Positions 6,704 to 64,000 of a stretch of 64,000 nucleotides of DNA are shown here, one piece after another. A model generated the notes under the pieces. The model saw only the letters and a list, made by a program, of their open reading frames with translations, was not told the origin of the DNA and did not search any database. Source of the stretch: Thermoplasmatales archaeon SW_10_69_26. Its GTDB lineage: Archaea > Thermoplasmatota > SW-10-69-26. Both the position numbers and the translations under genes were made by a program. Positions within the stretch are counted from its first letter, which is position 1, and each line of letters begins with the position of its first letter. The DNA is taken from the NCBI GenBank assembly GCA_003009755.1, contig PXUB01000017.1:19149-83148 (forward strand), read 5' to 3'.

Positions 6704-7813
6704 TCAGTTCCCGTCGGCGGTCTCGGTCACGAAGGCTTGCATCCGTTCCAGGGCTTCCTCGTCGGTGCACTGGGCCGGCGGACGCTTGAAGAACAAGCTC
6801 GAGGGGCCCTCGATCGGGCCGGCTCGGCCCTCGTCGGCGGCGAGGGCCGCGCATCGGATGGCGTCGGTGAGGATGCCGGCCGAGTTGGGCGAGTCCTCCA
6901 CGGACAGGCGGGCCTCGAGCTCGACGGGGGCGCCGAGGAAGCCCTCGCCTTGCATCCGGATGAAGGCGACCTTGTTGTCGCCGAGGAAGGGCACGTAGTC
7001 GCTGGGCGCGATCTTGATGTCGTGTTCGTCCAGGGGCTCGTCGAGCTGGCTCTGCACGGCCTCGGTCTTCGAGGTCCGCTTGCTGTCCAGCCGCTCGACG
7101 TCCTGGAGGGTGAGGAAGTCGGTGTTGCCGCCGACGTTGAGTTGGTAGGTCTCGCCGACGTCCACGCCGCGGTTCTCGAACATGTTCGAGAGGACGCGGT
7201 GGGTGATCGTGGCCCCGACCTGGCTTTTCACGTCGTCGCCGAGGATCGGGACGTCGGCGTCGGTGAACCGCTTGGCCCACGAGGGCTCGGAGGCGACGAA
7301 GACCGGGATGCCGTTCACGACGGCGACCTCGGCCTCGAGGGCGGCCTGCATCCACGTCTCGGTGGCTTGCTGGGAACCGACCGGGAGGAGGTTGACGAGC
7401 ACGTCGACGTCGTGCTCGGCCAGCTTGGCGGCCGGGTCCACGGGGTCGCGGTCGGCGACGACGAAGGCGTCGTCCTCGTCGGCCTCGTCCATCCGCGGCG
7501 AGCGGCCGTCGGCCGGGGGTGCCATGTAGACGGGGGCCTCGACCTCGGGCGGCTCCTCGCGGACCTCGAGAGCGCAATTGGGATCGGCGAAGATCGCCTC
7601 GCCGACGTCGCGCCCGACCTTGCGCTCGTCGATGTCGAACCCGCACACCACGTCGAGGTCGCCGACGTGGTACCCGCCCAGGACGGGGTTCAGCAGGCCC
7701 GGGATGTCCGCGTCCGGCTCCACGTCGCGGTAGTGTTCGATGCCCTGGACGAGGGCCGAAGCGCAGTTCCCGACGCCGACGATCGCGACGTTGATTGATC
7801 CCACGTGAACCAC
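6704..7813 (-). CDS. ino1: Inositol-3-phosphate (myo-inositol-1-phosphate) synthase
   Basis: 369-residue NAD-dependent enzyme that turns glucose 6-phosphate into inositol phosphate. Seen: an N-terminal Rossmann motif VAIVGVGNCASALVQG, the conserved LVNLLPVGSQQATETW and VNGIPVFVAS stretches, the DDVKSQVGATITHR segment and LNVGGNTDF, all typical of archaeal/actinobacterial-size synthases (about 360-390 residues). An acidic insert (about 107-124) follows PADGRSPRM and looks like a salt-type surface loop. The start is a GTG at 7813; a second GTG three codons later (7804) is equally usable. It is the first gene of a probable operon with the phosphatidyltransferase and the UPF0104 protein, supplying the inositol head group of membrane lipids. 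Confidence 0.95.
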   Translation of the reverse strand: MVHVGSINVAIVGVGNCASALVQGIEHYRDVEPDADIPGLLNPVLGGYHVGDLDVVCGFDIDERKVGRDVGEAIFADPNCALEVREEPPEVEAPVYMAPPADGRSPRMDEADEDDAFVVADRDPVDPAAKLAEHDVDVLVNLLPVGSQQATETWMQAALEAEVAVVNGIPVFVASEPSWAKRFTDADVPILGDDVKSQVGATITHRVLSNMFENRGVDVGETYQLNVGGNTDFLTLQDVERLDSKRTSKTEAVQSQLDEPLDEHDIKIAPSDYVPFLGDNKVAFIRMQGEGFLGAPVELEARLSVEDSPNSAGILTDAIRCAALAADEGRAGPIEGPSSLFFKRPPAQCTDEEALERMQAFVTETADGN

Positions 7814-7884
7814 CGCGCCCCCGGTCGATAGCCGGTCCGGGACCGCACCGCTCGATTCGTCTCCGCGATTTAATGCTTTGGAGC

Positions 7885-8035
7885 CCCTTTCGTTCTCGCG
7901 GGGCCCTGACGCCTGCGGAGGGGGAGACGAAGAACGATCCTCGGCAACGAAGCAACCCCCTCCGGAGCGGTACAGGCCCCGGCGGCGCCGACATTGGGCG
8001 CTGGGGACCTTCGCGCAGGGCTATCCCCGCTCGAG
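7885..8035 (-). repeat. Dispersed repeat R1, copy a
   Basis: Read on the minus strand, this 393-bp gap between ino1 and the PHP gene contains GATAGCCCTGCGCGAAGGTC, then GGGGCCTGTACCGCTCC, GAGGGGGTTGCTTCGTTGCC and a final part with CCCCCTCCGC and GGGCCCCG. The same order of blocks occurs on the plus strand at 46780-46955 and 63775-63915, and in weaker form at 46640-46760. The R1a copy is close enough to align over about 150 bp with 46795-46945. No gene is evident in the gap. Confidence 0.7.
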
Positions 8036-8206
8036 ACGGCGCCGTCGCTGGCGAGTCGGCCTGGGACGAGAAAAGGGATGGCGAAAGCCTCGAGCCCTCG
8101 CGGCGTCTATGCCGTGAGAGGGGAACACCCGCCCCGAGGAAGACCCGAACCCGCCGCGGACCGGGAGGGACCCGCTGGGCGCTCGACCAGCTGCGACGAC
8201 GTCGCC

Positions 8207-10438: not shown

Positions 10439-10591
10439 TCGCGCTGTAAGGGAGAAACCGGGGGGGGGGCCACCAAGTACGCGGGGGGACGCCAGGGCAC
10501 AAAGGGGAGCAGCTGCCGTGACAAGGCCGCCCGGCGGCGAGTCACAGGCCCTTCGTGGCCTTGGCGATTCTTCGTGTCCTTCGCGGCCCCT
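10439..10591 (+). repeat. Dispersed self-complementary repeat R2, copy 1
   Basis: About 150 bp in the 325-bp gap before the HhH gene match 54683-54835 almost base for base, in the same orientation. Both begin GCGCTGTAAGG, have a G run, then CCACCAAGTACGCG, the block GGGCACAAAGG, AGCAGCTGCCGTGAC, a CCGCCCGGCGG core, GTCACAGGCCCTTCGTGGCC and TTCGTGTCCTTCGCGGCCCC. The left and right thirds are roughly reverse complements, GTGAC pairs with GTCAC, and the core is a CCGCC/GGCGG hairpin, so the whole unit could fold into one long stem. No protein-coding constraint is evident. Confidence 0.8.
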
Positions 10592-10639
10592 GCTTAACCA
10601 GACAGCCCGCCGTCGGGTGGCCCCTAGGCCTATCCCTCC

Positions 10640-46556: not shown

Positions 46557-46639
46557 GCTGCGGCAACGCCAACGCCCGCCAAAAAGCCACAGGGGTCCAG
46601 CGGCGGTGAAGCTGTGCCCAGGCCCCCACGACCCGGCCA

Positions 46640-46760
46640 GGGCGGATCCGGCGAACATAGCCCTGCGGGAAGTCCGGAAGGGCCGAAGATCTGTGCCGAT
46701 AGGGGCCTGCGTCGGCCTGGCCGGGCTTCGTCTTCCTTGCCGAGCGTTCTCCTTGCCTCT
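46640..46760 (+). repeat. Dispersed repeat R1, diverged copy b
   Basis: Starts ACATAGCCCTGCGGGAAGTC, then GGGGCCTGCGTCGGCCTGGC and TTCCTTGCCGAGCGTTCTCC. The order of blocks matches copies c and d, but with many substitutions. It stands 25 bp before copy c, making a tandem pair in the 458-bp gap between the ThiR gene and the acidic-protein gene. Confidence 0.6.
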
Positions 46761-46779
46761 CGGAAGGCGGGGCCGGCGA

Positions 46780-46955
46780 GTCCAGTTGCCCGTCAGGCGG
46801 AGATAGCCTTGCGCGAAGATCCCACAGCGTCCAAGATCAGGGTCGATGGGGCCTTCGTCGCTGGCGAGGGGGGTTTCTTTCTTCGCGACCGTTTTTCTTT
46901 GTCCCCCTCGCCAGACGCCGAGGCCCCGTAGAAAGAAAAAGGGTCTTCGTTTCAC
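46780..46955 (+). repeat. Dispersed repeat R1, copy c
   Basis: Begins TTGCCCGTCAGGCGGAGATA, then GCGCGAAGATCCCACAGCG, CCAAGATCAGGGTCG, GGGGCCTTCGTCGC, GAGGGGGGTTTCTTTCTTCG and TTTTTCTTTG, and ends with CCCCCTCGCCAG and GGCCCCGTAGAAAGAAAAAG. The first 100 bp are nearly identical to 63787-63890, the last 60 bp to copy a (7885-8035, minus). The T-rich blocks could act as archaeal terminators. Confidence 0.75.
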
Positions 46956-54682: not shown

Positions 54683-54835
54683 TCGCGCTGTAAGGATAAA
54701 AAACGGGGGGGGACCACCAAGTACGCGAAGGGACACCAGGGCACAAAGGCGAGCAGCTGCCGTGACAACGCCGCCCGGCGGCGAGTCACAGGCCCTTCGT
54801 GGCCTTGGCGATCCTTCGTGTCCTTCGCGGCCCCT
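54683..54835 (+). repeat. Dispersed self-complementary repeat R2, copy 2
   Basis: Same orientation and order of blocks as 10439-10591, with about a dozen differences by eye, including a shorter G run and GGGACACCAGGGCACAAAGG on the left arm. The right arm CCTTCGTGTCCTTCGCGG pairs with the left arm CGCGAAGGGACACC. Confidence 0.8.
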
Positions 54836-54929
54836 CCTCCGCCCGCGTGCCGTTGACCCGGCCCCCTCCTTCCCGCGGCCCCCTCTCGGTCTCCGCCGGG
54901 AGCCCCGCCGCCGTCCCCGAGGTGGAGCC

Positions 54930-63614: not shown

Positions 63615-63774
63615 TCCTCGAACATCCCTTCGTCATCGCCCGCCCCGCGCGACTGCGCCGTCGCCCGTCGAGAGATCGTTCTGCGTGGAGGTCTACAGCG
63701 TCCGTGGTCGGCGATGGGGGGACGCGGCCTCGTTCTCCCTACTCAGGCCTTGGTTGTCCGCGCTGGGGTCGATT

Positions 63775-63915
63775 GAGCCCTTCGTCGTTGCCCGTCAGGC
63801 AGAGTTAGCCCTGCGCGAAGATCCAACAGCGGCCAAGATCAGGGTCGCTGGGGCCTGCGTCGCTCCCGAGGGGGGTTTCTTTGTTGCCGAGGATTTTTCT
63901 TTGGGCGATTGAGGA
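63775..63915 (+). repeat. Dispersed repeat R1, copy d
   Basis: TTGCCCGTCAGGCAGAGTTA, then CCCTGCGCGAAGATCC, CCAAGATCAGGGTCGCTGGG, GCCTGCGTCGCTCCCGAGGG, GGGTTTCTTTGTTGCCGAGG and TTTTTCTTTGG. It is nearly identical to copy c over its first 100 bp, then diverges. Confidence 0.75.
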
Positions 63916-63979
63916 GTGTCATTACCGCCCGAACCGTTCGCCACAGCCGGCCTAACCCCTGACACCGCTACCCCCGCTC

Positions 63980-64000
63980 ATGGGAAACCCACCCGGCCTG
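63980..64000 (+). CDS. Possible start of a further gene, cut by the window
   Basis: ATG at 63980 opens a frame (MGNPPGL) that reaches the end of the window. GGCCTAACCC, about 28 nt upstream, is weakly TATA-like. Only seven codons are visible. Confidence 0.2.

Follow-up and report, generated by a model that had tools for sequence, protein, structure and literature searches.

The dispersed repeat R1 of an uncultured Thermoplasmata archaeon is a multi-copy, non-coding element with a covarying structure, which has inserted into a formerly closed gene boundary and whose tail, in about half of the complete copies, ends at a stop codon. We give roughly even credence to the reading that R1 is a lineage-specific repeat of the REP/MITE type, mobile but not autonomous, docking at gene ends where it would serve as a 3′-end control. 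The window analysed here is a stretch of 64,000 nucleotides from this genome (2.8 Mb in 49 contigs, 95% complete). Genes near R1 in the window are archaeal and encode ThiN, an AbrB-PhoU protein and a Kae1-Bud32 fusion. Among named sequences, Kae1 is matched best in the Thermoplasmata MAG CSSed11_322R1 (66% identity). An earlier note on this DNA had recognised R1 as a dispersed intergenic family, and this stands; what it had overlooked is the real content of R1, namely its hairpin, the pairing of loop and tail, and the docking at stop codons.

All four copies reported earlier, on both strands of the window, were recovered with refined coordinates:

7882-8042, minus strand: copy a, complete short form, with arms of the S1 hairpin at 7899-7924 and 7956-7981 (inverted repeat)
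46639-46782, plus strand: copy b, degenerate and tailless, directly 5′ of copy c
46785-46945, plus strand: copy c, complete short form
63649-63718, plus strand: possible leftover of an extra 5′ domain before copy d (nhmmer E 0.004 only)
63787-63903, plus strand: copy d, its loop cut after TTTTTCTTT by the insertion-sequence end GGGCGATTGAG

Their location between genes was borne out against genes called by codon usage, copy a lying upstream of the myo-inositol-1-phosphate synthase gene (6704-7804, minus strand). With copy c as reference, local alignment scores were 54 for copy a, 38 for copy b and 87 for copy d, against maxima of 15-16 in 500 dinucleotide-preserving shuffles. The similarity of copies c and d, which had been put at more than 90%, is real but slightly lower (87% across 117 bp, 89% within the first 100); a common 3′ tail of copies a and c, claimed over 60 bp, is likewise real but weak (76% over 38 bp). 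Copy c scored 179 bits with cmsearch (E 7e-46 genome-wide) under a covariance model that had it in the training set, and the family was also recovered by plain blastn. Copy b was found at a genome-wide E of 5e-4 by a covariance model that did not contain it.

Blastn with copy c as query found more than 20 copies in the source genome, and the covariance model, built from 11 copies, raised this to about 30 with E<=1e-3 as the limit and to 40 with E<=1, a few matches being the opposite strand of the palindrome. The earlier note had named confinement to its four copies as an outcome that would speak against the family, and this is not what the genome shows. Under strict filters the same model found no R1 at E<=0.01 in 96 further genomes of the phylum, nor at E<=0.001 in 388; the two scans (of 97 and 389 genomes, with the source genome included and the sole match) partly overlap, and the filters could miss weak relatives. 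Phages, plasmids, IMG/VR contigs and GTDB contigs (the last by pattern scan), collections which exclude the source genome, gave no match to R1 either, and a phage, plasmid or viral origin was rejected on this ground. Rfam families were searched as well: nothing reached a gathering threshold in the window, and three R1 loci gave matches at chance level only, in agreement with the earlier statement that R1 has no named relative. Literature searches on archaeal triple-helix elements and on dispersed structured repeats turned up no account of the family. Among the genomes and collections scanned, R1 appears to be lineage-specific.

A reading frame shared by copies c and d (ALREDP...EGGFF), open in most 5′ domains as well, had raised the idea that R1 encodes a tiny peptide. 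The synonymous share of single-base codon differences in this frame was 28%, versus 33% and 35% in the other frames, and the variability of alignment columns had no period of three. As synonymous changes are thus scarcest in the very frame proposed, and neither codon periodicity nor any sign of protein constraint is seen, a short R1 peptide is hardly credible and was rejected. We conclude that the R1 family is non-coding.

Copies of R1 are 160-330 bases long. A complete copy begins with a conserved 5′ domain (GTTGCCCGTCAGGCGGAGATAGCCCTGCGCGAAGATCCAACMGCGYCCAAGATCAGSGWCGMT, about 60 nt), which is followed by a hairpin of about 25 bp (S1) and an A-rich 3′ tail; the tail pairs with a U-rich part of the hairpin loop (S2). 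S1 is built from an outer stem (GGGGCC/GGCCCC), an internal loop and an inner stem of 12-14 bp; its loop runs from a first U-tract (TTTCTTT) through an apex to a second U-tract (GAGGATTTTTCTTT or variants), to which the tail after the stem (GAAAGAAAAATGCTC or variants) is complementary. The parts of copy c are as follows:

46785-46846, plus strand: 5′ domain, conserved in sequence, with no clear covariation and no coding signal (alignments, entropy test)
46847-46872, plus strand: 5′ arm of S1 (inverted repeat, arm swap test)
46873-46886, plus strand: first U-rich tract and apex of the loop, a tentative candidate Hoogsteen strand (P ~6e-4, relatedness uncorrected)
46887-46900, plus strand: second U-rich tract of the loop, GACCGTTTTTCTTT, partner of the tail in S2 (inverted repeat, swap test)
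46903-46928, plus strand: 3′ arm of S1 (inverted repeat, swap test)
46932-46945, plus strand: A-rich tail, AAAGAAAAAGGGTC, partner of the loop (inverted repeat, swap test)

In middle-sized copies the loop holds two additional hairpins; in the largest it holds up to three, with two more in the internal loop. Some copies are scarcely more than a 5′ domain, tandem copies exist, and the tail is missing in copy b and in the first copy of locus L038.

The arms of S1 covary among copies, as do loop and tail, and both pairings were disrupted when partners were swapped between copies. The loop:tail duplexes of true partners summed to -278 kcal/mol versus -196 (sd 13) for permuted ones, and the inner arms of S1 to -389 versus -275 (sd 18), with 0 of 5000 permutations as good in either case, values which are inflated by kinship among the copies. 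At least six distinct matched loop/tail pairs were seen (GAGG/GCTC, GACC/GGTC, GAAG/CTTC, GAAC/GTTC, GCAG/CTGC and GCCAG/CTGGC). The constrained feature of R1 would then be its structure, in which the U-rich strand of the S1 loop is complementary to the A-rich tail. Mismatches were 9 G-T versus 9 A-C in S1, and 5 versus 2 in the loop-tail pairing. Since the counts in S1 are equal, neither RNA strand is marked as selected, and the covariation could be upheld at the DNA level. Folding of single reverse-strand sequences, by a method that does not model pseudoknots, was mixed: copy c folded into the hairpin (z -3.4), and two larger copies partly took other folds.

The order of parts in R1 (stem, first U-tract, upper hairpins, second U-tract, stem, A-rich tail) is also that of the ENE/MALAT1 elements, and R1 might accordingly be an RNA with a 3′ U-A-U triple helix that protects or processes a transcript, which we consider unlikely. 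The second U-tract pairs with the tail, and the extra hairpins of large copies lie at the position of an upper stem. A triple helix is further hinted at by the first U-tract, which matched the tail in the parallel (Hoogsteen) register (true partners 126 versus 113.5 for permuted ones, sd 3.8, P 6e-4, in a post hoc test uncorrected for relatedness) but not significantly in the antiparallel register (P 0.18). However, only about 3 nt join the base of the 25-bp stem to the tail, too short for the loop to be reached unless the stem bends or partly opens; S1 and the loop-tail pairing can therefore coexist only in that case, and are otherwise alternatives. The first U-tract is moreover poor in some copies (L082 and copy a), and the asymmetry between strands expected of an RNA is missing.

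In the window, whose GC content is 70%, 0.01 occurrences of the T-rich motif TTTTTCTTT are expected and three were found, every one within R1; the earlier suggestion that the T-rich blocks of R1 act as terminators is plausible. An insertion sequence with GGGCGATTGAG ends was found directly after this motif in two R1 loops and one R1-like tail (window 63904-64000, and contigs C36 and C10; loci L090, L091 and L089), and the fragment it encodes on C10 matches the IS1595/ISXO2 transposase domain. The motif seems to be the target of this insertion sequence, and several contigs break at the motif or the insertion-sequence site. Another R1 copy (L038:7090-7201) lies at a contig end and is cut after GACGTCGAG, apparently by the terminus of a different transposase gene. 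A gene for an IS110-family transposase (L034:9307-10425), also close to the end of a contig, is separated from an R1 copy by about 2.8 kb. The window also holds a second dispersed repeat of 156 nt at 10439-10594 and 54683-54838 (identity about 91-92%), whose ends are nearly palindromic (CACCAAGTACGCG...CCTTCGTGTCCTTCGCGG) and which occurs in at least four further places (L040, L084/L070, and twice in L087).

In 11 of the 23 complete copies the tail ends within 2 nt of, or overlaps, the stop codon of a gene on the antisense strand, as called by codon usage. In the commonest fit the final C of R1 complements the G of TAG. The stop codons at these flush copies were TAG in nine cases and TGA in two, and TAG ends 26% of genes in the background (P 2e-4). 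Among the genes concerned are those for archease, RtcB, ribosomal protein S27ae, NMD3, the PheRS core-domain protein, a protein of aminoacyl-tRNA editing, a cyclophilin and an Lhr-type helicase. As protein profiles of archease, RtcB and S27ae extend to or near the last residue, the stop codon flush with R1 is the natural one. Seven of the 11 flush genes are related to RNA or translation, a count which serves as a lead only. None of the remaining 12 complete copies ends at a stop codon in this way. Non-flush copies include copy a and those with a GGGTC tail end, most of which precede the start of a gene on the same strand by 16-113 bp (in one case by 377 bp). A large-form R1 copy has been duplicated 3.8 kb away along with the final codons of the Lhr-type helicase gene (L044:4398-4718 and L044:8171-8490).

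Comparison with the sole other genome of the same family among the genomes compared (G001) revealed the history of these sites. The G001 genes for RtcB, archease and tRNA editing stop at the corresponding place, with a TGA codon, and R1 is missing there. Its NMD3 gene and the convergent neighbour (65% identical to that of the source genome) abut with zero gap (...TGATCA...), whereas in the source genome they are separated by 229 bp, of which 157 are R1. Evidently, as the orthologous sites are empty, R1 inserted after the two lineages split. The archease and rtcB genes stand side by side in G001 and near each other in further relatives; in the source genome (contig C43:27429-42345, locus L192) they are 13 kb apart, in reversed order, with R1 at each stop codon, so that at least one rearrangement breakpoint fell at R1. 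No T-tract comparable to that of R1 was found after the stop codons of genes without R1, nor in the G001 orthologues, and the possibility that the tail of R1 is the host gene's own terminator, captured upon insertion, was therefore rejected.

Like a MITE, R1 is interspersed, short, multi-copy, non-coding and missing at orthologous sites. It has no terminal inverted repeats, the strong inverted repeats being internal only and the 5′ end and tail being, by inspection, not complementary. Copy L042 is flanked by TA on both sides, a hint only, with the 5′ boundary blurred in most copies and G001 too diverged. A Y1/RAYT transposase (PF01797) had no match in the 95%-complete genome, and matches in 5 of 14 control genomes; neither a transposase nor a clear target-site duplication could be tied to R1. 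R1 was presumably spread by an enzyme acting in trans.

At the flush copies the host mRNA would read UA(G-AGCAUUUUUCUUUC)-hairpin, that is, UA(GAGCAUUUUUCUUUC) and then the hairpin, so that the host gene would gain a U-tract and a strong hairpin from its stop codon on. Such a combination may work as a 3′-end signal, by archaeal U-tract termination, and/or as a brake on ribosome release close to the stop codon. Termination by archaeal aCPSF1 relies on U-tracts (PMC8716108), and in E. coli REP hairpins no more than 15 nt from a stop codon cause ribosome stalling (PMC12306157). With either effect, R1 would be an element that controls the 3′ ends of its host genes.

It is possible rather than probable that R1 is instead purely selfish, its palindromes serving a single-stranded or hairpin transposition intermediate, or being kept free of mismatches by replicative template switching, and gene boundaries being simply the only sites where insertion is tolerated. 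The equal mismatch counts in S1, with no RNA-strand signature, agree with this, as do the tandem and tailless copies; and where NMD3 and its neighbour leave no gap, as in G001, a tolerated insertion is forced onto the stop codon. Random tolerated insertion, however, predicts scattered distances after stop codons and not 11 of 23 copies at 0-2 nt, and the share of flush hosts with RNA- or translation-related functions may be non-random. The reading of R1 as a mobile repeat turned 3′-end control is for its part weakened by the lack of a linked transposase, by the 12 complete copies that are not flush and by the missing RNA-strand signature in S1. A bolder combination, which we regard as quite improbable, is an archaeal mobile RNA-based element that integrates exactly at the stop codons of housekeeping genes (TA/G, T/GA) and places an ENE-like U-A-U triplex at the 3′ end of its own transcript or of the host mRNA. 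If true, it would be an archaeal counterpart to the 3′-end triplexes of eukaryotes and viruses.

R1 shares features with several known systems. It resembles integron attC sites in being a folded imperfect palindrome adjoining stop codons, but its end is, by inspection, GTTGCCC or variants and not the RYYYAAC/GTTRRRY core, there is no cassette array, and the hosts are housekeeping genes. ERIC and the pneumococcal BOX elements are intergenic, MITE-like, modular or palindromic repeats of 100-170 bp confined to a lineage. The enterobacterial RU-1, RU-2 and RU-3 are of the same kind, at 100-170 bp, in one lineage (PMC2759123). Unlike RU, ERIC and BOX, to which no sequence relation was found, R1 lacks terminal inverted repeats and has as modules hairpins inserted in S1 and the loop. 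Bacterial REP/BIME sequences of the GTAG and CGTC families are, like R1, multi-copy, palindromic and intergenic, mostly 3′ of genes and between convergent or co-directional ones, and have been proposed to affect termination, the stability of mRNA and the control of translation close to stop codons (PMC3733652, PMC12306157). R1 differs from REP in its size (160-330 bp versus a 20-40-bp palindrome), its 5′ domain and loop-tail pairing, its number (about 30 copies, not hundreds), and in having neither a GTAG/CGTC tag at the hairpin foot of aligned copies nor a RAYT/Y1 transposase in the genome. The ENE/MALAT1 elements of eukaryotes and their viruses have a stem, two U-tracts, a stem and an A-rich tail (PMC11411715, PMC12501189); R1 has this order and the Watson-Crick pairing of the second U-tract with the tail, a small apical loop replacing the upper stem in short copies. 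It differs in its long S1, in having almost no linker to the tail, in a triplex that is merely hinted at, and in occurring as many dispersed copies in archaeal DNA. Since for each of these classes some defining features are missing or at most hinted at, R1 is not classed as a member of REP, MITE or ENE.

Short structured repeats dispersed near gene ends are thus a kind known in bacteria (PMC3733652, PMC12306157, PMC2759123), where they are much described, and little described in archaea. As far as literature searches reach, the architecture of R1, its archaeal lineage and its exact docking at stop codons are undescribed. R1 joins a covarying loop-tail fold with a precise position at the stop codons of conserved RNA and translation genes. 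It thereby poses the questions of how an element can settle so precisely on stop codons, and whether essential archaeal genes can come to use an inserted repeat as their 3′-end signal.
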